64,000 nt of DNA from Corallium rubrum (lineage: Eukaryota > Cnidaria > Anthozoa > Scleralcyonacea > Coralliidae): NCBI GenBank assembly GCA_964035015.1, contig OZ036007.1:5834997-5898996 (forward strand). The letters are read 5' to 3'. This document shows, in pieces, positions 35,386 through 53,326 of this stretch. Positions within the stretch are counted from its first letter, which is position 1, and every line of letters starts with the position of its first letter. Made by a program: the position numbers and the translations under genes. A model generated the notes under the pieces. The model searched no databases, was not told the origin of the DNA, and saw nothing but the letters and a program-made list of their open reading frames with translations.

Positions 35386-35467
35386 ATGGAAGAAAGAAGG
35401 TTCCACAGCTTGCGCATCGTTCTTATGTTTTTGACATGCGCTGTGCCTGTTCGAGGACAACTAAAAA
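35386..35467 (+). CDS. protease gene 1, exon 1 (signal peptide)
   Basis: MEERRFHS then hydrophobic IVLMFLTCAV and the cleavage-like VRG-Q. The donor used for phase agreement is CTAAAAA|GTGGGT (phase 1), which is weaker than the usual GTRAGT; GG|GTATAC two bases on would break the frame. Confidence 0.65.
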
Positions 35468-38400
35468 GTGGGTATACAAAAATAATTAACTGCATGGATA
35501 TAGGCAGCGAGATAGGCAGTGTTTTGAATAGAGTAAACTGAAAAAGTGATTAACTGCCGAAATTTTTAGTAACCGAAGTACTGACGTTTCGATGTTTCCT
35601 TGTATAAGGGCTCTACTTGAAATGTCGGTTTAAGAAAGGTCGCTAGTTCACTTACACGCAGGCACTCGCGCAGGCACTGCGTTATAAACGCATAGGAACG
35701 CAGTCCGTCTTTTATAGTTTGACGGCGCGCGTCAGTATAAGTTAACCCACGGCCTGAATGACGCTTTGGTATAACATGATATACTGTAATTATTGACAGT
35801 GTGTATTTCCGATATAGTTAGATCGTTTGTGTCCGTGGCTGTCCATTGCAATCATCCTCATCAGCTGTTAAAGCATCGTTGCCGACCCATGATTTAGATG
35901 TATGTTAAGTAAAAGAATAAAAGCACTGCTTTTCTGCATTGTTCTTTATTACTTAACATGCTGCTGCACTTCCCGTTTTAACATGCATCTAAGTCACAAA
36001 TCGCCGACCATCGGCGGCCATCGGCGACATATGAGAACCAGGCTTTATAATAAATATCGGTATATATTTCCTATCGATACCATTCCATTTCGGTTGCGCT
36101 TTTTAGTGTAGAAAACACGGAGTTTTAGTGTCGCTTGTCAATACTGCGAAGCGCGCTTTCCAAAGAGAGATGGTGTATATGTGATCGACTATGGTGCATG
36201 TGTCATTGTTTACTATTTTGTATCGAAGTTGACTGCGGGTCGCAGTTTGTTTTGACAGAGCCAAATAGAAATAGGATATGTAATTTAGTACGATAACTAA
36301 CGTCCGCTTTATCTTCACCGTCACACTATAGCCGGCTGCCCAGATATTCAAATGCGTACACGTTCTCTATTTGCTGTCCTTTCTTTTTCCTTCGCTTTTC
36401 TTTTAACCTGTTGTACTGCCTTGTCCGCAAGGGTCCCTCTACGTGACCGCAGTGTGTGGCCACCATCACACCATGCAAGCTTTAGACCAAAGCTCATTAT
36501 GATTGGATAATTTTTCAACCTTGGCAACGTAATTCCGAACGAATATCTGAACTTCCCAACGAACTTCGTAACACAAGCGCAATAGTAATGTGAAATCAAT
36601 TGTAATATTAATGAATGTAAAACAAAAGATTTGCCACCAGCACTACCACCACCAGCACAACTTGACCATCACCACCAGCACAACTTCACCACCACCACCA
36701 GCACAACTTCACCATCACCACCAGCACAACTTGACCATCACCACCAGCAGCACAACTTGACCACCACCACCAGCAGCACAACTTGACCATCACCACCAGC
36801 AGCACAACTTGAGCACCACCACCAGCAGCACAACTTGACCACCACCACTAGCAGCACAACTTGACCATCACCACCAGCAGCACAACTTGACCACCACCAC
36901 CAGCACAACTTGACCACCACCACCAGCACAACTTGACCATCACCACCAGCACAACTTGACCACCAGCACAACTTGACCACCACCACCAGCAGCACAACTT
37001 GACTATCACCACCACCAGCACAACTTGACCATCACCACCAGCAGCACAACTTGACCACCACCAGCAGCACAACTTCACCATCACCACCAGCACAACTTCA
37101 CCATCACCACCAGCAGCACAACTTGACCACCACCACCAGCACAACTTCACCATCACCACCAGCAGCACAACTTGACTATCACCACCACCAGCACAACTTC
37201 ACCATCACCACCAGCAGCACAACTTGACCACCACCACCAGCACAACTTGACCATCACCACCAGCAGCACAACTTGACTATCACCACCACCAGCACAACTT
37301 CACCATCACCACCAGCGGCACAACTTGACCACCACCACCAGCAGCACAACTTGACCATCACCACCAGCAGCACAACTTGACCACCACCACCAGCACAACT
37401 TGACCACCACCACCAGCACAACTTGACCATCACCACCAGCACAACTTGACCACCAGCACAACTTGACCACCACCAGCACAACTTGACTATCACCACCACC
37501 AGCACAACTTGACCATCACCACCAGCAGCACAACTTGACCACCACCACCAGCACAACTTCACCATCACCACCAGCACAACTTCACCATCACCACCAGCAG
37601 CACAACTTGACCAGCACAACTTGACCACCACCACCAGCACAACTTGACCACCACCACCAGCACAACTTGATCACCACCACCAGCGCAACTTGACCATCAC
37701 CACCAGCACAACTTGCCCATCACCACCAGGTCCACCATTACTTGACCACCACCACCATCGCCACTAGCATTACAATCACCACCAATACCACCATCCCCAC
37801 CATTACTAACACTAGCTCCAGCACTAACACTACCGCCACCTTCAACAGTTTTCTCAGGACTACACTAACTCAAAACGAGCAACTTTTACTAACATCTACT
37901 AGTACTCAAATCATTTACTTTAACGCTAATTTCTTCCAACTTTTTGATTCTTTACAAGCTCGCCCATGTCTTGACAAAAATATATATTGTCAGTCTTGGA
38001 GTCAGGCGAATGAGTGCGTAAGAAATCCTGCTTACATGAACATGTATTGCCCTAAAAGTTGCAACACTTGTCAAGGATCCTTCTCGACATCGAGACCAAA
38101 ACAATACCGACAGGGTAAGTTGTCTTCCTTTCCTTTGCTTTTCCTTTCCTTTCCTTTCCTTTCCTTTCCTTTCCTTTCCTTTCCTTTCCTTTCCTTTCCT
38201 TCTATTTCCTCTCCTTCCATCTCCTTCCTTTCATTTCTTTTCCCTTCCTTCCTTTTTCCTCTCATTTATTTCCCTTTTCTTCCTTTCCCTTCCCTTCCTT
38301 CCTTTTTCTTATTTTTCTAATCACTCTAAATTGCTCAAGAATTATTTCCTCAAAATTGAAACGCATTATTAAACCGATTACAGTGTGCCAAGACAGAAAT

Positions 38401-40169
38401 ATCTACTGTAGCGATTGGAAACGAAACAACCAGTGTACTACCAATCCTGGGTTTATGAATATTTATTGCGCAAAAAGCTGTAGCGTGTGTGGAGTAACTA
38501 TAGCAACAACGAGAACCTTGAGTCCGTCTACCCCTACCCGGACCACTAAATCGGGGCTTGGTGCCGACCCGACCTTACTGGATGACGATGACTCAGGGAG
38601 TGATGGGTCAGGGAGTGGTGACAATGTAGTGCCCACGACCACGCGGTCAGTCTCTACTGATGTTAGTAACCCTGGCAACACCAGCTATCCCACAACACCA
38701 GTCACCAGGACCTCGCCATCCCTCCAACCCGCCGACTCCATCAAATGTGGGAAGAAAGCCTTACTAGGGCGAATAGCCGGCGGGAAGAAAGCACCCCTGG
38801 GCAGCTGGCCGTGGCAAGTTGGTATCAAGTCATGCGCGAAGTGCAAGTTCTTTTGCGGCGGAACAATTGTTGGTAAGCAATGGATAATAACCGCTGCCCA
38901 CTGTTTTGCTAACTACCAACCAGATGAATTGATTATCGAAGCCGGGGTGGTGGATCAAAGCGCAGTGTCTAAGTACCGACAGACATTCAAATGTGTAGAA
39001 ATCCACAAACATCAAGATTATAGCGTGGCTGCAGTGTTTGACCAGGATATCGCTGTGCTGAAATTAGACAAAGCATTGACGTACAACGACAAAGTTCGAC
39101 CGTTGTGCCTGAATACGAAAACTTTAAACGTCAACCAACGGTGCGTGGTGACTGGATTTGGCAGAACAGTAGAACGTGGGTTCAATTCAGTTTACCTCAG
39201 ACAAGCCACTGTGCCTATTGTTTCTAGGAAAGTCTGTGCCAAGGTATTGTATACATATAATATACTTTTTTTTGCTATAAGGACGGCGCCGCTTTCTTGG
39301 AATCCGCAGATGGTCGTTGCACACTTCGTTCCCAGACGTAGACATGGAATTGGACATAGACATAGACGTAGACGTAGACGTAGACGTAGACATAGACGTA
39401 GGCGTACACATAGACATGGACATAGACATAGACATAGACATAGACATACCGACATACAGACATAGACAAACATAGACATACAGACATAGATAGACATAGA
39501 TAGACATAGACAGACAGACGATAGACATAGACATGGACGTAGACGTGGACACGGACAAAGACAAATATAGGCATCGATACGGCATAAACATAGAATGGGC
39601 ATGGACATAAACACGGACATGGACATGGACATGGACACGGACATGGACACGGACACGGACACGGACACGGACACGGACACGGACACGGACAAAGACATGA
39701 ATATAGGCATCGATACGGACATAAACAAAGATATATGCTGATGGACATCGCCATAGATAGACATAGACCCGACATGGACGAAGACATAGATACAGACAAC
39801 GACATCGACATATGAACTTAGACGCTGAGACAATTTCATATTTCTTTTGAGTATTTTGGAAGTACGCAGCACAATACTTTTTTCATATCTTTATTTAATT
39901 CTCATCTTCACATATAGGCGTATAATTCATCCGTCTCTCGTCGAAAAGTCACGGACAACATGATATGCGCTGGCTTTGCCAAAGGAGGGATCGACGCTTG
40001 CGGTGGCGACAGCGGTGGACCTCTCACCTGTTACGATATCAAGGAACAACGATATTTTCTTGGGGGTATAGTCTCGTGGGGTGTTGGCTGCGCACGCGCA
40101 AATCAATATGGGGTCTACACAGACATGGCACACCTGATACCTTGGGTCAAGAAAATTATTAAGATCTGA
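35386..40169 (+). CDS. secreted ShKT-ShKT-trypsin serine protease, 4 exons, 449 aa
   Basis: Secreted trypsin-like endopeptidase with N-terminal ShKT domains. Exons: 35386-35467, 37959-38114, 38384-39243, 39918-40169; phases 1-1, 1-1, 0-0 all match. Residues 1-24 are a signal peptide. ShKT1 (about 30-64) and ShKT2 (about 81-115) each have six Cys in the C-x6-C...C-xxx-C-xx-C pattern. A Ser/Thr/Asp linker (about 116-205) is likely O-glycosylated. The zymogen site is LLGR|IAGG (I210). The catalytic triad is H252 (TAAHC), D301 (DQDIAVL) and S398 (GDSGGP); D392 six residues before Ser predicts cleavage after Lys/Arg. The first ShKT domain has its own symmetric phase 1-1 exon. A paralogue follows at 42.3 kb. 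The substrate is unknown; the ShKT domains may mediate binding or targeting. Confidence 0.88.
35505..35640 (+). repeat. fragment of the hammerhead-like foldback family
   Basis: Contains GATAGGCAGTGTTTTGAATA, GTACTGACGTTTCGATG and CTACTTGAAATGTCGG. It lies in intron 1 of protease gene 1. Confidence 0.5.
35893..36046. repeat. MITE-like repeat, copy 1
   Basis: TTAGATGTATGTTAAGTAAA has its complement TTACTTAACATGC and GTTTTAACATGCATCTAA further on. The same roughly 140 bp, including CATATGAGAACCAGGCTT at the end, recurs at 41913-42050. Confidence 0.75.
36631..37738. repeat. minisatellite of CCACCACCAGCACAACTTGA units
   Basis: About 45 units of 20-27 bp, built as CACCA/CCAGCA repeats plus the anchor ACAACTTGACC or ACAACTTCACC, with some runs repeated in the same order. 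It lies within intron 1 of protease gene 1. Long Val/Cys/Trp frames on the minus strand are artefacts. Confidence 0.95.
37959..38114 (+). CDS. protease gene 1, exon 2 (ShKT1)
   Basis: Acceptor TTTACAAG, donor CAGG|GTAAGT, 156 nt, phase 1-1. Encodes CLDKNIYC...CNTC with all six ShKT cysteines plus a short tail. Confidence 0.88.
38122..38305. repeat. (TTTCC)n microsatellite, intron 2 of protease gene 1
   Basis: A pure pentamer run at about 38138-38200 grades into TTCC/TTTCC variants. It supplies the pyrimidine-rich part of the intron. Confidence 0.9.
38384..39243 (+). CDS. protease gene 1, exon 3 (ShKT2, linker, trypsin N-half)
   Basis: Acceptor GATTACAG, 860 nt, ends AAG|GTATTG in phase 0. 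Carries ShKT2, the Thr/Ser linker, the activation site and catalytic His and Asp. Confidence 0.9.
39340..39810. repeat. (GACATA)n / (GACACG)n / (GACGTA)n satellite in intron 3
   Basis: Hexamers based on GACATA, GACGTA and GACACG, in partly homogeneous blocks. The Arg/His and Ser/Met frames across it are artefacts and are not part of the protease. Confidence 0.93.
39918..40169 (+). CDS. protease gene 1, exon 4 (trypsin C-half)
   Basis: Acceptor ACATATAG, in phase 0, joins CAK to AYNSSVS. Carries CGGDSGGP with the active Ser, GIVSWGVGCA and the final Trp-Val helix (PWVKKIIKI). Confidence 0.9.
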   Translation, partial: AYNSSVSRRKVTDNMICAGFAKGGIDACGGDSGGPLTCYDIKEQRYFLGGIVSWGVGCARANQYGVYTDMAHLIPWVKKIIKI

Positions 40170-41459: not shown

Positions 41460-41665
41460 AGTGTGACGAAATCGAAATATAGAAAGGTTTGAGTAGTGCC
41501 GAAAATATTGAACGTAGCTTCTAACGTTTAGAGCGAAGGCCCTTCGGAACGTTTCTCTCTGACGAAGGGCCTTCGCTCGAAACGTTAGAAAACTATGTTC
41601 AATATTTTCAGCAGCATTCAGGCTTACTCTTTCAACACTGCCTACTCAGCACGCTACTTTAAGGT
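41460..41665. repeat. foldback element with hammerhead-like core
   Basis: CGAAATATAGAAAGGTTTGA at the left; GAAGGGCCTTCGCTCGAAAC near the centre preceded by CTCTCTGAC; the right end is CACTGCCTACTCAGCACGCT. Same family as 16.1, 27.9 and 46.2 kb. Confidence 0.8.
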
Positions 41666-42271: not shown

Positions 42272-42383
42272 ATGAAGGTCGTCTTTTCGTTTGCTCTTCT
42301 ATTGCTCGTAAAAGCGACACTCACTGATCAAGCCTGCGTGGAACCGGAAAGTCACAGTTCCATTAATAACCTCATATTCCGAA
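42272..42383 (+). CDS. protease gene 2, exon 1 (signal peptide)
   Basis: 112 nt, donor CCGAA|GTAAGT, phase 1. Hydrophobic FSFALLLLV core; cleavage is likely near TLTDQA. Confidence 0.75.
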
Positions 42384-45300
42384 GTAAGTACGACATTCGT
42401 AAATTGTTCACATATGCTATCGTAGTTAATACGTGATTTCCTAAGTTTCTGTCTTGTGGTTACTCTTTACATGACTTCGATTTTAGTTTTGGTTGCCATA
42501 AAATAGGCACAGCGCGCGGTTCGTTTGTCGTGGTTTCGTTTTACTTATTTCGTCTCGGGTTAAGATCTTTCTCGAGTTAGTGTAGCAATCCAGTTTTAAC
42601 AGCGTAATATTTTCTTGACGCAAGTTTGACGCGAAGTTACTAATAAAAAAGTAGTTACGCAACGACCCCAATCTCGATCAAACAGTTGCGCAAAGGTTCG
42701 AAAATCTGTACCAAGTCCTGAGACCTCTCGAACATGGCAAAGTTATGCCATTGCGTGCAAGCCAAATGACATGTGATTCATCTTTTCCCCTTGCAGTATA
42801 AATGGCGCTATTTTAAGTATTTTTCTAGGCTTATGTATTAAATGTTAAGACTTTTTATCCTTTGATTTCTGGAAAGGAAGGGAAAGGAAGGATAATATCA
42901 TCCTTAATTAATCCATATCTTTGGCGTTAAACGCAACGGGTGATATCACCATGGAAATTAATGAAGAAAGTCGGACAGATCGGGTACAAAGAGCAACGTT
43001 TTCTTTTCTTTTTTGTGCGTTGGAAGTTCCCATTTCCATCATGGAAGGCAGTACATTTAGAAGAACAATTATATGTTTTGCTTGTTGATGAGAATTGTTT
43101 TCTATCTTTAGTTCTTCGAAAATGTCGTCTTTTTGAAATATGCGACAACTTGGCCACAAAACTAAAATCAAATGGCCCGTTGCGTTTAACGCCAAAGATA
43201 TGGTAGCCGGTAGTTGAATTGCGAAGGAGTTGTGGGTCTATGCACCTGGCAGCCAGCATACGACTCATTTATGACGTCATTAATACGAAGGGTGGAAAGC
43301 TGGAAAACAACCCTCGAATGACAGGAGAAACCAACTACAGCAACGCTACCCACATACACGAGTTTCAAGCTTGGGACTCCCACCCAAGCACTGACCTTGT
43401 CTGACCGAACACTTAACTTTGGACCTCTGCGGCGAGCTAAAAACCGCATGGACTGACTCGCCACTTGTGTTTCTCGGCCTTACAACCCATTCTTTGCCAA
43501 CTCATCCTTTTCCTTACAGCATATTTCCGCCAATCTTCCGCAGGACGGATAATTTTCGCTGCGGCTAAACAACGAACGATGCGTCCGGTAATAGAATATC
43601 TTGCTCATTATGACTTGAGCGAAAAGATGATGTTTTCATAGAAAACAAAACCAGACACAGTGATAGCCTTATTTGGCGTAAAAACATTGCGCCAAAAACA
43701 TCGCATCAAAAAAGTCTCGTCAAAAAGGTCACGTCAAAAAAGTCGCGTCAAAAAGGTCCTGTCAAAAAAGTCGCGTCAAAAAGGTCGCGTCAAAAAGGTC
43801 CCGTCAAAAAGGTCGCGTCAAAAAAGTCGCGTCAAAGAGGTCCCGTCAAAAAAGTCGCGTCAAAAAGGTCCCGTCAAAAAAGTCGCGTCAAAGAGGTCGC
43901 GTCAAAAAGGTCCCGTCAAAAAAGTCGCGTCAAAAAGGTCGCGTAAAATATGTCGCATCAAAAACGTCGCATTAAAAATGTTGCGTCAAATAAGTTGCTT
44001 CAAAAACATCGCTTGCTATTGATTCCGCAGCAACCGAACGAACTAACAAACGCACTCACACAGAATATATACGCGCTCATAACTCGTTAGGCACCGCAAT
44101 TGCCTAAAATGCAGACTCGAACTGCAGACCGGAAAACGCAGAGGGTAATTAAATTATGCTCGAATTGTGTTGCTTCTACAACGCAACGTAAGTTTAAAAT
44201 TAAAATTTCAAAGTTCATCATGAATCCTTTCGTGAAGCGCCATTTCTTCCAAAACTAAAACTAAAGTCTCTTTCCAATCATGAAAGAAACAAGTTCGCGG
44301 CGAGCTTCGAATACTTCCGATAGTATATGTTGTACAAAATTTCAACTTGGACTGGCGTGTGCTGCTCTTATAGGAAAACGAAGCACTTGTGTGGATAGCT
44401 CAGCCAGCTTTTGTTTCAAGTGGAGGTATAATACTAAATGGCTGTGCGGCACGTACAGAAATTATTGCCAAAAAACCTGCGGTGTCTGCAGAGGTAAGTG
44501 TGTGCTGGGTAAAGCTTTGTCTATTGCCTAATTTCATGTCGCGAAAGAGACTGGCACTGTCCTGGAAAATCCGTTAGTACTAGTCTGATCTCCGGCGTGG
44601 TGTGAAACAAAGGAATATTGCACGCCGGAGGCTGGTACTAACGGATTTTCCAGGCCAGTGCCAGTCTCTTTTGCGACATGAAATTAGGCAATATGAGTGG
44701 TTCCTAAACTGTGAGTTCTGGCTTCCCTGATGAGCCACGTGGGGAGACCTAATAGAGCTATATGTAGACGTAATATGCCTAATAGACGCAATCGAATGAT
44801 AATTAAAGAGAAAGTGGTAATTAAATAGGGTGCTAATTAGAATGGATGCTAATTAGAGAGGGTGCTAATTAGAAAGAGGGTGTTAAGTAGAGAGGGTGCT
44901 AATTAGAAAGAGGGTGTTAAGAAGAGAGGGTGGTAATTAAAATGGATGTTAATTAGAGAGGATGCTTATTAGAAAGAGGGTGTTAATTAGAGAGGGTGCT
45001 AATTAGAATGGGTGTTAAGTAGAGAGGGTGCTAATTAGAATGGATGTTAAGTAGAGAGGATGCTAATTAGAAAGAGGGTGTTAAGTAGAGAGGGTGCTAA
45101 TTAGAAAGAGGGTGTTAAGTAGAGAGGGTGCTAATTAGAATGGATGTTAATTAGAGAGGGTGCTAATTAGAAAGAGGGTGTTAAGTAGAGAGGGCGCTAA
45201 TTAGAAAGGTGTTAAGAAGAGGGTGCTAATTAGAATGGATGTTAATTAGAGAGGATGCTAATTAGAGAGAGGGTGTTAAGTAGAGAGGGTGCTAATTAGA

Positions 45301-48300
45301 TTGGATGTTAAGTAGAGAGGGTGCTAATTAGAATGGATGTTAAGTAGAGAGGATGCTAATACGGTTAGGATTAAACTCAGTGACAGGGTCATGAATATCA
45401 GGGGCAGGCTTTCGTTTGTTCACACACCGCAAAAGCGTCGTTGTTAGTTGTTTTCGTGTTGACTATGTGGTTATTGTCGTTGTTGTTATTTATATTTTGG
45501 GCCCGCAGTAATTGGCAACTAGCTGTTGCGGTAACCCTGCCAAATTATTTACTGTGTATATTGTTATTGTTATTATTGGCAAAGTTATTAAATAAATAAA
45601 TTAGAAAGAGGGTGTTAAGTAGAGAGGGTGCTAATTAGAATGTATGTTAATTAGAGAGGATGCTAATTAGAAACATGGTGTTAATTAGAGAGGGTGCTAA
45701 TTAGAATGGATGTTAATTAGAGAGGGTGCTAATTAGAATGGATGTTAATTAGAGAGGGTGCTGATTAGAATGGATGTTAATTAGAGAGGGTGCTAATTAG
45801 AATGGATGTTAATTAGGATGGGTGTTAATTAGAATGGATGTTATTAGAGAGGGTGCTAATTACAATGGATGTTAATTAGAGAGGGTGCTAATTAGAGAAG
45901 ATGTTAATTAGAGAGGTTGCTAATTAGAAAGAGGGTATTAAGTAGAGAGGGCGTTCTAATTAGTGACTGCCGGTCCAAATATTTATTGTATCACTATATT
46001 TAAACAAATTTTGATAACCAAACAACGAAAGGCAATGAATGTTGTGCTGATAGAGTAATTTCATTATTTTTTAACTTTTCTAGTAACGACTGTTCCATCA
46101 GCACAAGGTAAAATATGATCCTACCTTCTATAATTAAAAGTAAAGTGACTTTATTTATTAAAGAACATATGACAGTATAACACGCGCCGCGTGCTGCGTA
46201 GGCAGTGTTGGAGCAACAATCGAAATATAGTAAGGTTAGATATACTGCTGAAACAGAGAACGTAGGAGTCTAACGTTTCGAGCAAAGGCCCTTCGTCAGA
46301 GAGAAACGTAAAGAGTTTATACGTTTTGTTTACACTCTTTACGTTTCTCTCTGATGAAGGGCCTTCGCTCGAAACGTTAGATTACTAACGTTCTCTGTTT
46401 CGGCAGTATATCTAACCTTACTATATTTCGATTGTTGTAACAAGTAAACATACGCTATCTTTTGACCCTTCTAATAGGGTGATCTTTGCAGTTGAGTTAC
46501 CCTACCACCATGTAAACGGTCATAAAGAGCTGTCTTTATTTTCCAGCTCTGTTCTATTCTCTCTCTTTTTTCAGCTTGCCGTAACAAGCACAGCTATTGT
46601 GCTACATACGCTACTAGAGGATATTGTAAAAATCAGCGCTACTTTAATTGGATGAAAGCTAACTGTGCACTGGCATGTCGTACTTGTCCTAAACTTTGTG
46701 GGAACCTACACAAGTCATGTGACTATTGGGCCGGGACTGGTGAATGTAAAAACAACCCCAAGTATATGTTGGTGTATTGCAAGAAATCATGTCGTGTTTG
46801 TGGTACTGTCATGGCAACGAAGAAGCCAAGTAAGTAATGAAATGCCACACCACACTACGCTACACTACATTATACCGTACCGCAACCGCACCGCACCGCA
46901 CCACACTGCACTGCACCGCACTGCACTGCACCGCACTGCACTGCACCGCACTGCACTGCACCGCACTGCACTGCACCGCACTGCACTGCACCGCACTGCA
47001 CTGCACCGCACTGCACTGCACCGCACTGCACTGCACCGCACTGCACTGCACCGCACTGCACTGCACCGCACTGCACTGCACCGCACTGCACTGCACCGCA
47101 CCGCACTGCACCGCACCGCACTGCACCGCACCGCACCGCACTGCACCGCACCGCACTGCACTGCACCGCACTGCACTGCACCGCACTGCACTGCACTGCC
47201 ACTGCACTGCCACTGCGTGACAACACTCTACATCACTATACACATCTCACACAATTACAATAATACTACCCTCGTACCATACCATATATATATATACCAT
47301 ACAACAACAATAATATATGCCACCACTACAGTTTATAATTGTATTCATTAAATTTGAATTTTGTTTTAATCTTTCAGCACCAAAGAAAATGACACCAAGT
47401 AAGTGACATAATTTAATTCAATAAAATCTATATCACATTATACCATTCCATACCACACCATACCACACCACACCAAACACACCATACCATACCATACCAT
47501 ACCATACCATACCATACCATACCATACCATACCATACCATACCATACCATACCATACCATACCATACCATACCAAACCACAATATACCATACCATACCAT
47601 ACCACACCATACCACACCATACCATACCATACCATACCATGCTATACCACACCATACCACAATATATCATACCATGCCATATGACACCACACCATATACA
47701 ATACCATACAACAACAATACTATATGCTACTACTACTGTATATAATTGTATTCATTAAATTTGAATTTTGTTTTAATCTTTCAGCACCAAAGAAAATAAC
47801 ACCAAGTAAGTGACATAATATAATGCAATAAAATCTATACCCCACCATACCATACCACACCATACCACACCATACCATACCACACCATACCATACCATAC
47901 CATACCATACCATACCATACCACACCATACCACACCGTACTACACCCTACCACACCATACCACACCATAACATACCACACCATACCACACCATACCACAA
48001 TATATCATACCATGCCTGCATGCCATACAACACCACACCATGCTACTACTACTGTATATACGTGTACTTGTATTCATTCAATTTGAATTTTGTTTTAATC
48101 TTTCAGCACCAAAGAAAACAACACCAAGTAAGTGATATAATATAATGCAATAAAATCTATACCACACCATACCATACCATACCACACCATACCATACCAT
48201 ACCATACCATACCATACCATACCATACCATACCATACCACACCATACCATTCCACACCATACCACACCATACCACACCATACCATACCATACCATACCAT

Positions 48301-51300
48301 ACCATACCATACCACACCATACCACACCATACCATTCCACACCATACCACACCATGCCACACCACACCATACCACACCATACCATACCATACCATACCAC
48401 ACCATACCATACCATACCATACCACACCATACCATACCACACCATACCGCACCATACCATTCCACACCATACCACACCATGCCACACCACACCATACCAC
48501 ACCATACCATACCATGCCATACCATACCATACCATACCATACCACACCATACCATACCATGCCATACCACACCATGCCATACCATACCATACCATACCAT
48601 ACCACACCATACCATACCATGCCATACCATACCATACCATACCATACCACACCATACCATACCATGCCATACCATACCATACCATACCATACCACACCAT
48701 ACCATACCATGCCATACCATACCATACCATACGTACCATACCATACCACACCATACCATACCACACCATACCACACCATGCCATACCATACCATACCATA
48801 CCATACCACACCATACCATACCATGCCATACCATACCATACCATACCATACCACACCATACCATACCATGCCATACCATACCATACCATACCATACCACA
48901 CCATACCATACCATGCCATACCATACCATACCATACCATACCACACCATACCATACCATGCCATACCATACCATACCATACCATACGTACCATACCATAC
49001 CACACCATACCATACCACACCATACCATACCACACCATACCATACCACACCATACCATACCACACCATACATACCACACCATGCCATACCATACCATACC
49101 ATACCACACCATACCATACCACACCCTGCCATACCATACCACACCATACCATACCACACCATACCATACCATACCACACCATACCATACCTCATCATACC
49201 ATACCTCACCATACCATACCATATCATACCATACCATACTATACCACACCATACCATACCACACCATACCATACCATACCATACCATGCTATACCACACC
49301 ATACCACAATATATCATACCATGCCATATGACACCACACCATATACAATACCATATAACAACAATACTATATGCTACTACTACTGTATATAATTGTATTC
49401 ATTAAATTTGAATTTTGTTTTAATCTTTCAGCACCAAAGAAAACAACACCAAGTAAGTGACATAATATAATGCAATAAAATCTATACCCCACCATACCAT
49501 ACCACACCATACCACACCATACCATTCCACACCATACCATACCATACCATACCATACCACACCATACCACACCGTACACCCTACCACACCATACCACACC
49601 ATAACATACCACACCATACCACACCATACCACACCATACCACAATATATCATACCATGCCTGCATGCCATACAACACCACACCATGCTACTACTACTGTA
49701 TATACTTGTATTCATTCAATTTGAATTTTGTTTTAATCTTTCAGCACCAAAGAAAACAACACCAAGTAAGTGATATAGTATAATGCAATAAAATCTATAC
49801 CACACCATACCATACCACACCATGCCATATACCATACCATACGTACCATACCATACCATACCACACCATACCACACCATACCACACCATACCATACCACA
49901 CCATACCATACCATACCATACCATACCATACCACACCATACCACACTGTACTACACCCTACCACACCATACCACACCATAACATACCACACCATACCACA
50001 CCATAAAACACCATACCACACCATACCATACCACACCATGCCATATACCATACCATACGTACCATACCATACCATACCACACCATACCACACCATACCAC
50101 ACCATACCATACCATACCATACCATACCATACCATACCACACCATACCACACCGTACTACACCCTACCACACCATACCACACCATAAAACACCATACCAC
50201 ACCATACCATACCACACCATACCATACCATACCATACCATACCATACCACACCATAACATACCACACCATACCACAATATATCATACCATGCCATACAAC
50301 ACCACACCATGCTACTACTACTGTATATACTTGTATTCATTAAATTTGAATTTTGTTTTAATCTTTCAGCACCAAAGAAAACAACACCAAGTAAGTGACA
50401 TAATATAATGCATTAAAATCTATACCACACCATACCATACCACACCATACCACACCATACCATACCATACCATACCACACCATACCATACCACACCATGC
50501 CATACCATACCATACGTACCATACCATACCATACCACACCATACCATACCACACCATACCACACCATACCATACCACACCATACCACACCATACCATACC
50601 ACACCATACCACACCATACCATACCATACCATACCATACCACACCACACCACACCATACCATACCATACCACACCATACCATACCACACCATACCACACC
50701 ACACCATACCACACCATACCATACCATACTGCAAAAAAATCACATCAGGGTTAAGTGCTCTCCGTCGTCTGAGGGCATTTGTCGACAGAGACTCGCTTCT
50801 TTCCGTCTACAATGCAATTATTCAACCCTACTTTATCTACTGTTGTGAAGTATGGAATGTTTTTGGTGAAACGCTGTCAACACGTCTGCAAAAACTTCAT
50901 AACAGAGCTGCTAGAATTATTACATATACGAGCAATGAAGTCGATCACAAAATTGTGTTAAGTGAATTGGGATGGCAACCACTCCAAACACAAAGAATAA
51001 AAGCCAAGGCTAAGATTATGTTTAAAATTTTAAATAATATGGGACCAAAGAGTCTCACAAACCTTTTTAGTTACAAAAAAGAGTTGTCAAGTTACAATCT
51101 TCGAGACATCTCATCTACCGTTTGTTTGCCGCAACCACGCACAAACAGCATGAAAAAGAGTTTCATGTTTGATGGAGCATCCATATGGAATTCTTTGCCC
51201 AAAGAAATTAGGGAAAGCAAATCTCTGTCGATCTTTGAACGCAAAATCGCTACTTATGACATGAAGTAATGTGTATGTAAATAAAATATGTAAATAATTA

Positions 51301-53326
51301 AATTATATTACTATATTACCTAGATACTTTACTGACATTTTTAACTACTTAAACTTCTATTTTTTACTATTGCTATATTCTATACTTTTTATTTCTCTTT
51401 ATTGTTGTACACGCCCTTCGTGGAAACCAGCTTTTGTTGACGTCGTTAGCGTGTTTAAATAAAATTTTCTATCTATCTTTCTATCTGTACCACACCATAC
51501 CATACCATACCATACCACACCATACCACACCATGCCATACCATACCACACCATACCATACCATACCACACCATACCATACCATACCACACCATACCATAC
51601 TTCACCATACCATACCTCACCATACCATACCATATCATACCATACCATACTATACCACATCATACCATACCACACCATACCATACCATAACATACCATAC
51701 CATACCATACCATACCACACCATACCACACCATGCCATACCACACCACACCATACCATACCACACCATACCATACCATACCATACCATACCACACCATAC
51801 CATACCACACCATACCACACCATACCATACCATATCATACCACACCACACCACACCATACCATACCATATGGGACGAAATACTGAGGTTTTGAAAACTTG
51901 ATTTTAGAGCCAATGAGAAACTGTGGTATACCTAGTACCAAACACTCTCGAATTGTTGGTGGACGTTTTGCGCAACCGGGTGCTTGGCCCTGGCATGTTG
52001 CCATTAAATCATGTCAGAACTGCACCACACTCCCATTCTGTGGCGGCACACTTATTAACAACCAATGGATAGTGACAGCTGCGCACTGCGTTCAAAACTG
52101 GTTGCCAACGGAACTATACGTCATCCTTGGAGACACGAATCTTCGTCGAAAAGACAGTCACGAGATCATCGTGGGGGTCAAGTCTATTTTTGTCCACAAT
52201 AATTACGCAATCAATGCCGCGTATGATAATGACGTCGCCTTGCTTCAACTAAAGAGTCCCGTGAAATTCACTACGCATGTGCGGCCTGCGTGCCTGGCTG
52301 ATGCTCAACCAAGGTTGCTTGCAGGAACGAACTGCACAGTGACCGGATTTGGAAGGACGTCTGAAAATGGTCAAAAATCACCAAGATTAATGCAAGCAGT
52401 TGTTCCAATAAAATCCACTGCCGACTGTAAAAAGGTAAACAACTTATACTCTAAAGATTTGTGTTTTGTTTTTTCGTATGATTTTGCTGTACAAGTTGTC
52501 GTAAGTTAAACTCAGAGAAAAACTCTGAGCTCCAGACGGGACTCGAACCCACAACCTTCCGAATGCCAGCCGGACGCTCTCACCATTGAGCCACTGGAAC
52601 TCAGATGGTAGACCGAGGTTGTTTTCGATATCATATACGCCTGGGAACTAGTCAGACCGTACGTGTGTTGGTATCAAGTACCAAGTACTTGTTGGGGACA
52701 CCACTGCCGCCAAACGTTTTGCGCATGTGCGACGTCCGAGCTCGTCCTCGGAAAAAGAGCGGGAAAACACTGAAATATTTGGACTGGTCCGAGAGTCCGA
52801 CACAAAAGTTAAAATTATAAGCATACTACCAAAACGATAAGGTAGGTAATTTGTGCATGGCTTCCTTGTCAATATTGTAACATATTCTGAACTTACCCCT
52901 TCGTAATTTTCTTTACCCTTTTTTTAAAACACAAATGAATAGTCGAGTCTTACTTAGTCTTCACTGTCTTCTTTTGCAATTTTACTCAGCGAATTCACGC
53001 ATGCGCAAACGTTTGGCAGCGGTGTTCTTGTTGGGTTGTTATTCAGACTATTGGTTTTATTGTATTTCTAGGTATTAGGTCAGTCAGTTACATCCAACAT
53101 GTTTTGTGCTGGATATGCCCAAGGAAGGATCGATTCATGCAGAGGGGATAGTGGGGGGCCTCTGGTCTGTCAGGGATCAGATGGATCATGGCGGCTGACA
53201 GGGATAGTGTCTTGGGGAAGAGGTTGTGCGCGAAAGAACCAGTATGGGGTTTACGCTGACGTGCAAGTTCTTCGGGGATGGATTCAAACGACCATCTCCA
53301 AGGAAACGTCTGTCCGATCTGGCTAA
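42272..53326 (+). CDS. secreted (ShKT)3-linker-trypsin protease with microexon array, 12 exons, 472 aa
   Basis: Paralogue of the upstream protease. Coding exons: 42272-42383, 44374-44493, 46084-46107, 46575-46829, six 21-nt microexons (47378, 47785, 48107, 49432, 49745, 50370), 51908-52434, 53072-53326. All junctions before the last are phase 1; the last is phase 0; the total is 1419 nt. Signal peptide [15 protein letters not shown]; ShKT1 about 43-77, ShKT2 about 87-121, ShKT3 about 124-160. The linker is six TPKKxTP units (about 171-212). Activation site SR|IVGG (I228); triad H272, D321, S415; D409 predicts Lys/Arg specificity. The three ShKT domains are less alike than those of gene 1. Introns hold MITEs, a SINE, a LINE remnant and satellites. 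The model rests on splice consensus and phase; expression would confirm it. Confidence 0.85.
42912..43203. mobile_element. MITE with perfect 28-bp terminal inverted repeats
   Basis: CCATATCTTTGGCGTTAAAC (plus GCAACGGG) at 42912-42939 is exactly inverted at 43176-43203. The element is 292 bp long and lies in intron 1 of protease gene 2. Its internal frames are not convincing genes. Confidence 0.88.
43690..43990. repeat. 14-bp minisatellite (AAAAAGTCGCGTC-type)
   Basis: About 21 units alternate between GTCGCGTC and GTCCCGTC cores with A5-A6 spacers. One frame stays open and reads Lys/Arg/Ser-rich because 3 x 14 bp is a whole number of codons; it lies in an intron and is not called. Confidence 0.92.
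44374..44493 (+). CDS. protease gene 2, exon 2 (ShKT1)
   Basis: 120 nt, acceptor CTTATAG, donor AGAG|GTAAGTG, phase 1-1. Encodes CVDSSASFC...CGVC with six cysteines. Confidence 0.85.
44524..44691. repeat. long near-perfect hairpin (MITE-like), 168 bp
   Basis: TTGCCTAATTTCATGTCGCG at the start is inverted at the end; about 70 bp per arm pair with few mismatches, including GACTGGCACTG, AAAATCCGTTAGTA and CTCCGGCGTG. It starts 30 bp after exon 2. Confidence 0.9.
44790..45962 (+). repeat. minisatellite (GAGAGGGTGCTAATTA / GAATGGATGTTAATTA), interrupted
   Basis: Units of about 16-18 bp alternate between GTGCTAATTAGA and GTGTTAAGTAGA or ATGTTAATTAGA forms. The array spans 44.79-45.36 and 45.60-45.96 kb and is split by a retroelement tail. 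Confidence 0.92.
45361..45597 (+). mobile_element. LINE 3'-end insertion inside the minisatellite
   Basis: A non-repetitive 235-bp block ending TTATTAAATAAATAAATTA separates two halves of the array. The A/T-rich simple tail and sharp left boundary suggest a 5'-truncated retrotransposed end. Confidence 0.55.
46084..46107 (+). CDS. protease gene 2, exon 3 (24-nt microexon)
   Basis: Acceptor TTTTCTAG, donor ACAAG|GTAAAA, phase 1-1, encoding VTTVPSAQ between ShKT1 and ShKT2. Identified only by splice sites and phase agreement. Confidence 0.6.
46190..46440. repeat. foldback element with hammerhead-like core, best preserved copy
   Basis: Begins GTGCTGCGTAGGCAGTGTTG. CGAAATATAGTAAGGTTAGA at the left is inverted at the right end. 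The + strand has CTGATGA (46351) GGGCCTTCGCTC GAAAC (46371). Long arms pair around position 46325. Confidence 0.85.
46575..46829 (+). CDS. protease gene 2, exon 4 (ShKT2 and ShKT3)
   Basis: 255 nt, acceptor TTTTTTCAG, donor GCCAA|GTAAGT, phase 1-1. Two adjacent ShKT domains (CRNKHSYC...CRTC and CGNLHKSC...CRVC) share one exon. Confidence 0.88.
46845..47218. repeat. pentamer array (CTGCA/CCGCA)n
   Basis: Mostly the 15-bp higher-order unit CTGCACTGCACCGCA, becoming irregular at the right. It fills the intron before microexon 1; Ala/Val/Gln/Cys-rich frames are artefacts. Confidence 0.95.
47378..47398 (+). CDS. protease gene 2, linker microexon 1
   Basis: 21 nt between TTTAATCTTTCAG and GTAAGTGACATAA; phase 1-1; encodes TPKKMTP. 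Confidence 0.8.
47430..47670. repeat. (ACCAT)n pentamer array A
   Basis: ACCAT units with ACCAC and AACAC variants in the intron between microexons 1 and 2. Confidence 0.95.
47785..47805 (+). CDS. protease gene 2, linker microexon 2
   Basis: 21 nt with the same flanking splice sequences; encodes TPKKITP. Confidence 0.8.
47840..48050. repeat. (ACCAT)n pentamer array B
   Basis: Pentamer array in the intron between microexons 2 and 3. Confidence 0.95.
48107..48127 (+). CDS. protease gene 2, linker microexon 3
   Basis: 21 nt; encodes TPKKTTP; donor GTAAGTGATATAA. Confidence 0.8.
48160..49340. repeat. (ACCAT)n pentamer array C with 45-bp higher-order units
   Basis: Between 48576 and 48960 the marker pentamer GCCAT recurs every 45 bp (48576, 48621, 48666, 48711; 48780, 48825, 48870, 48915, 48960), giving nine-pentamer units. 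The interruption ACGTACC occurs at about 48731 and 48985. Minus-strand frames of up to 395 codons are artefacts. Confidence 0.95.
49432..49452 (+). CDS. protease gene 2, linker microexon 4
   Basis: 21 nt; encodes TPKKTTP. Confidence 0.8.
49485..49690. repeat. (ACCAT)n pentamer array D
   Basis: Pentamer array in the intron between microexons 4 and 5; closely resembles array B, including CCTGCATGCC near its right end. Confidence 0.95.
49745..49765 (+). CDS. protease gene 2, linker microexon 5
   Basis: 21 nt; encodes TPKKTTP; donor GTAAGTGATATAG. Confidence 0.8.
49798..50320. repeat. (ACCAT)n pentamer array E
   Basis: Contains two copies of a longer segment (marked by ATATACCATACCATACGTAC at about 49825 and 50042), about 217 bp apart, showing internal duplication. 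Confidence 0.95.
50370..50390 (+). CDS. protease gene 2, linker microexon 6
   Basis: 21 nt; encodes TPKKTTP; the last one before the protease exon at 51908. Confidence 0.8.
50424..50728. repeat. (ACCAT)n pentamer array F
   Basis: Pentamer array in the last linker intron, broken by a LINE insertion; it resumes at 51486-51868. Confidence 0.95.
50729..51486 (+). pseudogene. LINE C-terminal remnant inserted in the pentamer array
   Basis: Decayed reverse-transcriptase C-terminus: [27 protein letters not shown] and [14 protein letters not shown] in one frame (about 50745-50955), then [17 protein letters not shown] to [11 protein letters not shown] (stop 51269). The 3' region ends GTTTAAATAAAATTTTCTAT with (CTAT)n. 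ACCAT pentamers on both sides show it landed inside the array. Dead: 5'-truncated and frameshifted. Confidence 0.85.
51486..51868. repeat. (ACCAT)n pentamer array F, right part
   Basis: Continuation of the array after the LINE; includes CTTCACC and CATATCAT variants shared with the right end of array C. Confidence 0.95.
51908..52434 (+). CDS. protease gene 2, exon 11 (trypsin N-half)
   Basis: Acceptor GATTTTAG, phase 1, ends AAAAAG|GTAAAC in phase 0. Holds the activation site (SRIVGG), catalytic His (TAAHC) and Asp (DNDVALL). Confidence 0.9.
52480..52660 (-). mobile_element. tRNA-derived SINE in intron 11
   Basis: Minus strand: AGTGGCTCAATGGTGAGAGC (box A) and GGTTGTGGGTTCGAGTCCCG (box B) followed by GGAGCTCAGAGTTTTTCTCT. 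The best preserved of three related copies (others near 0.25 and 21.6 kb). Confidence 0.8.
53072..53326 (+). CDS. protease gene 2, exon 12 (trypsin C-half)
   Basis: Acceptor TTTCTAG, phase 0. Carries [10 protein letters not shown] with the active Ser and specificity Asp, and [10 protein letters not shown]. An AATAAA near 53516 could be the polyadenylation signal. Confidence 0.9.

Follow-up and report, generated by a model that had tools for sequence, protein, structure and literature searches.

How can a linker between two protein domains come to consist of near-identical repeats that are spread over separate exons? Gene B, a protease gene in the 64-kb window (i.e. the whole stretch of DNA analysed), raises this question, as six copies of a 21-nt exon lie between the exons for its ShKT domains and its protease domain, in introns rich in satellite DNA.

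Gene model and domain organization

Gene B was modelled as a complete 12-exon gene on the + strand (42272-53326) with a product of 472 residues, in which an ShKT-like domain is followed by two ShKT domains, the linker and a trypsin domain (Table 1). Introns 1-10 are all in phase 1 and intron 11 is in phase 0. The protease is of the S1 trypsin-like type, i.e. it scored 236.4 bits (4.2e-70) with the Pfam model Trypsin PF00089 vs a curated cut-off of 20.6, and TAAHC, DNDVALL and GDSGGP are present in the translation. The ShK model PF01549 matched two stretches with 59.9 bits (3.5e-16) vs a cut-off of 20.9. The ShKT-like exon 2 was absent from the matches (at least 86) of the Pfam-model search of the genome for ShK, and gave a weak BLASTP match to the ShKT region of the neighbouring gene A (E 1.2e-4). 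The best 60 of 560 solved structures listed match only the protease part, with plasma kallikrein ranking first. The linker and protease start together reached 26.3 bits with a viral glycoprotein model of Pfam, just below its cut-off of 26.4, which we take to be an effect of composition.

Apart from the six 21-nt exons, a separate 24-nt microexon (exon 3) bridges exon 2 and exon 4; it sits 3' of two 16/32-mer minisatellite arrays (44814-45360 and 45607-45955). Within intron 11, ARAGORN placed a tRNA-Ala (ggc) at 52527-52600 on the - strand, possibly a tRNA or a tRNA-derived SINE. By eye, the stretch around CGAAACGTTAGA is found in inverted copies at 46230-46440 and 41470-41620, likely a short foldback repeat element.

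Table 1. Features of gene B, its introns and related loci (positions within the window unless a contig is given)
Feature	Position	Strand	Description	Basis
Gene A	35386-40169	+	Tandem paralog, 450 aa; signal-peptide-like exon, two ShKT domains, trypsin	
Gene B exon 1	42272..42383	+	Start codon; hydrophobic signal-peptide-like N-terminus (by eye); ends in phase 1	Gene model
Gene B exon 2	44374..44493	+	ShKT-like domain, phase 1-1	Gene model; cysteine pattern by eye
Gene B exon 3	46084..46107	+	24-nt microexon VTTVPSAQ, phase 1-1	Gene model
Gene B exon 4	46575..46829	+	Two ShKT domains, phase 1-1	Gene model, Pfam
i1 array	46885..47210	+	15-mer ACCGCACTGCACTGC x22, AG-free	
m1	47378..47398	+	TPKKMTP	
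Pentamer arrays of i2-i6 and first part of i7	47440..50729	+	ACCAT-type, m2-m6 among them	
m2	47785..47805	+	TPKKITP	
m3	48107..48127	+	TPKKTTP	
m4	49432..49452	+	TPKKTTP; flanks identical to m2	
m5	49745..49765	+	TPKKTTP; m3-type flanks	
m6	50370..50390	+	TPKKTTP	
Insert in i7	~50732-51480	+	Non-array, ends in short TCTA repeat	
Pentamer array, 3' part of i7	51488..51869	+	ACCAT-type	
Gene B exon 11	51908..52434	+	Trypsin domain, first part	Gene model, Pfam
Gene B exon 12	53072..53326	+	Trypsin domain end and stop codon	Gene model, Pfam
ShKT exon tandem arrays	C15:4.08 Mb, C15:6.0 Mb, C37:6.78 Mb		Near-identical units	

The microexons and their splice signals

We refer to the six microexons as m1-m6 and to the seven introns from exon 4 to exon 11 as i1-i7. 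An earlier note on this DNA had claimed six copies of a 21-nt exon with a shared acceptor and donor, all in phase 1-1, that join the end of exon 4 (46829) in frame to the start of exon 11 (51908) and encode (TPKK[M/I/T]TP)6. All of this held: the six copies lie where Table 1 places them and are the only ones at up to four mismatches on both strands of the window, the 17-nt acceptor stretch TTGTTTTAATCTTTCAG stands exactly upstream of each, the donor GTAAGTGA(C/T)ATA follows directly 3' of all six, and the phases and the in-frame join are borne out by the gene model. The consensus in which the exon had been written needs correction, as its four variable nucleotides would make 22 nt, whereas variation is confined to a single codon (3 nt; ATG, ATA or ACA) and the exons m3-m6 are identical. 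Both differences are missense, and a single variable codon is too little to gauge selection on the exon. Likewise, maintenance of the frame counts only once as evidence, because the copies inherit their frame from being copies.

None of the 31 splice-signal columns varies among the six copies, vs 20 of the 126 gap-free columns overall (P=0.002), or vs 12 of 107 when the alignment is restricted to -50..+56 (P=0.013). With the exon included, two of 52 columns vary (P=0.001 for the whole alignment, 0.018 in -50..+56), all these P values being indicative because the copies share ancestry, yet are treated as independent by the test. Within the span of gene B, the microexon donors rank 15-20 (tied) of 522 GT by U1 pairing, and the acceptors rank 4-9 of 475 AG by pyrimidine content. 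A scan of the 64-kb window for acceptor/donor pairs spaced 6-60 nt apart, with a home-made score, returned the six cassettes and no other pair on the + strand, and one pair on the - strand; it provides a background rate and no independent test, as its thresholds had been set from the cassettes, and it misses the 24-nt exon 3, the acceptor of which is marginally below threshold.

All 64 inclusion subsets of the microexons, including the empty one with exon 4 spliced straight to exon 11, keep an open frame and change the product in steps of seven residues, resulting in 20 distinct proteins of 430-472 residues. Retention of any of i1-i7 leads to a stop at the third codon, which is carried in frame by the donor GTAAGTGA or GTAAGTAA.

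Satellite arrays in the introns

The introns had been described as almost wholly arrays of ACCAT-type pentamers, which applies to i2-i6, but not to i1 with its 15-mer array or to i7 with its non-array insert. By eye, the reading frame of this insert resembles the 3'-terminal part of a non-LTR retroelement. Exact repeats at a 45-bp offset are present inside i4 (167 nt at 48775 and 48820), and i6 contains a copy at a 216-bp offset (102 nt exact).

When the donor hexamer and the acceptor are excluded, i2-i6 (292-1304 nt) contain 0, 0, 0, 0 and 1 internal AG, respectively, the sole one of i6 being situated 12 nt from the intron start, whereas 5-12 per intron are predicted by composition alone, given the low G content. 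One AG was found in i1 vs about 22 expected, and 35 in i7 vs about 50 expected; those of i7 begin only after its first array. AG is absent from the four pentamer stretches measured (0 per kb), in which GT occurs 0-8 times per kb, and the three arrays in earlier introns of gene B have 63-165 AG per kb. Therefore, the pentamer arrays offer no competing acceptor to splicing. Also AG-free among the 19 array stretches examined are those with the units TTG, GCTG, CATT and TTCCT (gene A) and the i1 array. Considering that arrays of four other units in the window are AG-free too, and that low G lowers the expectation, this feature need not be selected; AG-freeness is a property of some repeat units and no proof of selection.

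Duplication history of the cassettes

The cassettes are irregularly spaced (407, 322, 1325, 313 and 625 nt). The most diverged is m1, which differs from m2 at 11 of 112 flanking positions (5/70 upstream and 6/42 downstream), whereas m2 and m4 do not differ at any of the same 112 positions (70 upstream and 42 downstream nt). Moreover, i3, which follows m2, and i5, which follows m4, show a single mismatch in 282 aligned bases, besides four gaps (3-10 nt each), and m3 and m5 have the GATATA variant of the donor as well as a C at -28 in common. The local alignment is colinear across m2-i3-m3 and m4-i5-m5, with outer sides that grade into poorer-matching pentamer array, and 59 of 1047 positions differ over the entire aligned stretch, arrays included. 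The colinearity and the identical flanks therefore show that m2 and m3 were copied together with their intron to give m4 and m5, the ends of the block lying within the array, where they cannot be placed exactly because any two pentamer arrays align. As m4 combines the flanks of m2 with the codon of m3, block copying alone does not suffice, and either a second occurrence of the same mutation or conversion of a short tract has to be assumed.

The last two to four cassettes had earlier been called nearly identical, which is correct for the exons m3-m6, but the flanks reveal a two-cassette copy from 2-3 to 4-5. The related proposal that the arrays drive unequal exchange, by which whole cassettes are added or removed, fared similarly: the in-frame exons form modules that were duplicated locally, and the two-cassette copy fades within pentamer arrays, but the recent event copied two cassettes jointly and may have been either unequal crossing-over or template switching.

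We also considered whether the founding microexon was derived from an adjoining exon, either exon 4 at its end or exon 11 at its start; ten local alignments with 1000 shuffles each gave P values of 0.02-0.64, none of which is convincing after ten tests.

Genome context and related genes

Within the limits of the search, a 132-nt cassette query had six matches in the 474-Mb assembly (312 contigs). A mobile element carrying the cassette is unsupported, as all six matches lie in the gene B array. The protease exon of gene B had one perfect match in the 312 contigs, and neither a second haplotype nor a second copy of the locus was found there with the protease-exon and cassette queries. The pattern TTTTNNNNTTTCAG N15-33 GTAAGT occurs at 57 places in the genome vs 16 for a reversed control; by our own count, these comprise the six cassettes, 38 copies of one dispersed repeat and 13 single places. 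There was no other microexon cluster among the 57 places, and a looser pattern could find more. The dispersed repeat has acceptor-like and donor-like motifs about 30 nt apart (TTTTAGCCTTTCAG ... CCTGGTAAGT) and could serve as a seed of exons.

Among the matches listed, the next closest protease exons are those of gene A and of one gene on contig C1 (41%). Gene A is 36% identical to gene B over 425 aligned positions, and its linker, which is Thr/Ser/Pro-rich and acidic, lies within its 860-nt ShKT-protease exon. In the C1 gene, the open protease frame includes a linker with TPPPV and TPPLPN repeats; no clear ShKT domain was found in the 9.9 kb examined around this trypsin gene. The linker of gene B resembles the proline/threonine-rich linkers of these two related trypsins. 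By their coordinates, genes A and B are the only ones in which ShK lies within 100 kb of trypsin (at least 86 ShK vs at least 28 trypsin matches). The introns of gene A bear large arrays with 23-mer, TTCCT and AGACAT units.

Exon multiplication is not rare in this genome, since ShKT exons are tandemly multiplied at the three other loci inspected, in units of 659 bp (x14.6), 645 bp (x4.6) and 246/264 bp. In a tandem-repeat scan, the unit of the first locus was free of arrays, a GAACTA hexamer array was present in one interval at the second, and the third had two short ones. Their spacing is mostly constant, with two of six intervals deviating at the second locus. Gene B stands out by the minute size of its multiplied exon, the location of the copies among satellite DNA and their uneven spacing. 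At C37:6.78 Mb, two GTAAG motifs stand 12 nt apart after each of the seven ShKT exons listed, a possible in-frame tandem donor.

Origin and possible role of the microexon array

Judging from the sequence, we consider two things jointly as rather likely, namely inclusion of the microexons in the transcript and a change of their number through exchange, or template switching, among the arrays. The ancestor of the cassettes would have been a single 21-nt microexon of phase 1-1, flanked by strong splice sites and located inside a growing ACCAT-type satellite. Entire cassettes would then have been copied, at least once two together, as pentamer arrays recombined or the template was switched from one array to another. 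Every copy would add an in-frame TPKKxTP to the linker that connects the ShKT domains with the protease; this linker is basic and rich in proline and threonine, and its length may matter to the enzyme. Array expansion would presumably do little harm to splicing, as the sense strand is without AG and nearly without GT and the true acceptor would be the sole one offered; in this way, AG-freeness may permit the arrays to grow. If the microexons are spliced, the satellite could therefore change the length of a protein at little risk to frame or splicing. While the trypsins of gene A and the C1 gene hold their linker in the frame of the protease, the latter as plain coding repeats, the linker of gene B seems to have grown by exon copying in satellite DNA. 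As already proposed in the earlier note, a coding repeat need never have existed as such in one exon, given copied in-frame exons. More tentatively, and with some doubt on our side, the locus might be viewed as an evolvable hinge with a splice-silent satellite: AG-free arrays would expand freely, swap cassettes and tune the distance between ShKT domains and protease in 7-residue steps, and a non-coding VNTR would act like a VNTR in coding length, with individuals differing from one another.

Real microexons could also have been copied by ordinary tandem duplication, the arrays being bystanders that expanded later by slippage. The three ShKT exon arrays, which were multiplied as plain units with few or no arrays inside, are in line with this, as is the local growth of i4 and i6, which needs no cassette exchange; however, the cassettes lack the mostly constant spacing of the ShKT arrays and the homology of the 2-3 and 4-5 blocks peters out within arrays, which makes this origin unlikely. 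It is even harder to regard the copies as unspliced, i.e. as neutral or decaying intronic repeats that retained splice motifs by chance. Although 21 nt is short for exon recognition, and exon 4 could be joined straight to exon 11 in frame, both splice signals are invariant in all six copies despite the divergence of the m1 and m2 flanks, the splice sites rank high among the AG and GT of the gene, and the encoded linker is similar to those of two related trypsins; such a history is therefore quite improbable.

A third reading is compatible with spliced microexons exchanged between arrays, but moves the emphasis from a change in number between genomes to isoform variety in each individual, generated by alternative splicing as in the schistosome micro-exon genes. 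All inclusion subsets being open would allow this, and symmetrical microexons are taken as favouring it in the available part of a schistosome study (PMC4671649). Against this, an identical heptapeptide is encoded by four of the six microexons, so that length would be the main difference among isoforms, and the splice sites of all six are identical. From these sequence features, we regard such regulation as possible, though not the probable case.

Comparison with known systems

We consider gene B to be a variant form of tandem exon duplication that is closest to the schistosome micro-exon genes and to the KIV-2 repeat of LPA. It is a variant rather than a member of either the micro-exon genes or the coding exon VNTRs, because it departs from each in one feature, namely the mostly-microexon centre and the regular units, respectively. 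Schistosome micro-exon genes are described as having secreted products and runs of mostly symmetrical microexons of <36 nt between larger exons, which gene finders easily overlook (PMC4671649, consulted in part). Similarly, the product of gene B is presumably secreted and its tandem microexons are symmetrical, with all seven in phase 1-1 (six of 21 nt and one of 24 nt). In contrast to these genes, its central part is not mostly microexons, which account for 150 nt of the 1419-nt coding sequence (with stop codon), and six near-identical copies of one exon form only the linker of a multidomain protease, among satellite arrays.

In LPA, according to the portions of the sources consulted, coding exons in a tandem repeat lie upstream of the protease domain and the repeat number sets the number of modules (PMC11201333), each 5.6-kb unit carrying the two exons of a kringle domain (PMC11462820). 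Gene B likewise has predicted coding exons within near-identical tandem copies 5' of a protease domain, but its unit is a linker step of seven residues and not of regular length. The same arrangement was not recognised in the literature searched, as judged by titles and the starts of abstracts, which is no proof of its being unpublished.

Many small exons of the same phase also characterize the aphid bicycle and megacycle genes, the latter expanded by internal tandem duplication (PMC9168663, in part). However, internal bicycle exons are in phase 2, while exons 2-10 of gene B are in phase 1 at both ends, and satellite-embedded copies of one exon, as present in gene B, go unmentioned in the consulted part of that paper. 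Local exon duplication is likewise described, in the part of the source consulted, for tandem duplicated exons with mutually exclusive splicing (PMC9741552); such exons replace one another, whereas the copies in gene B appear to be additive.
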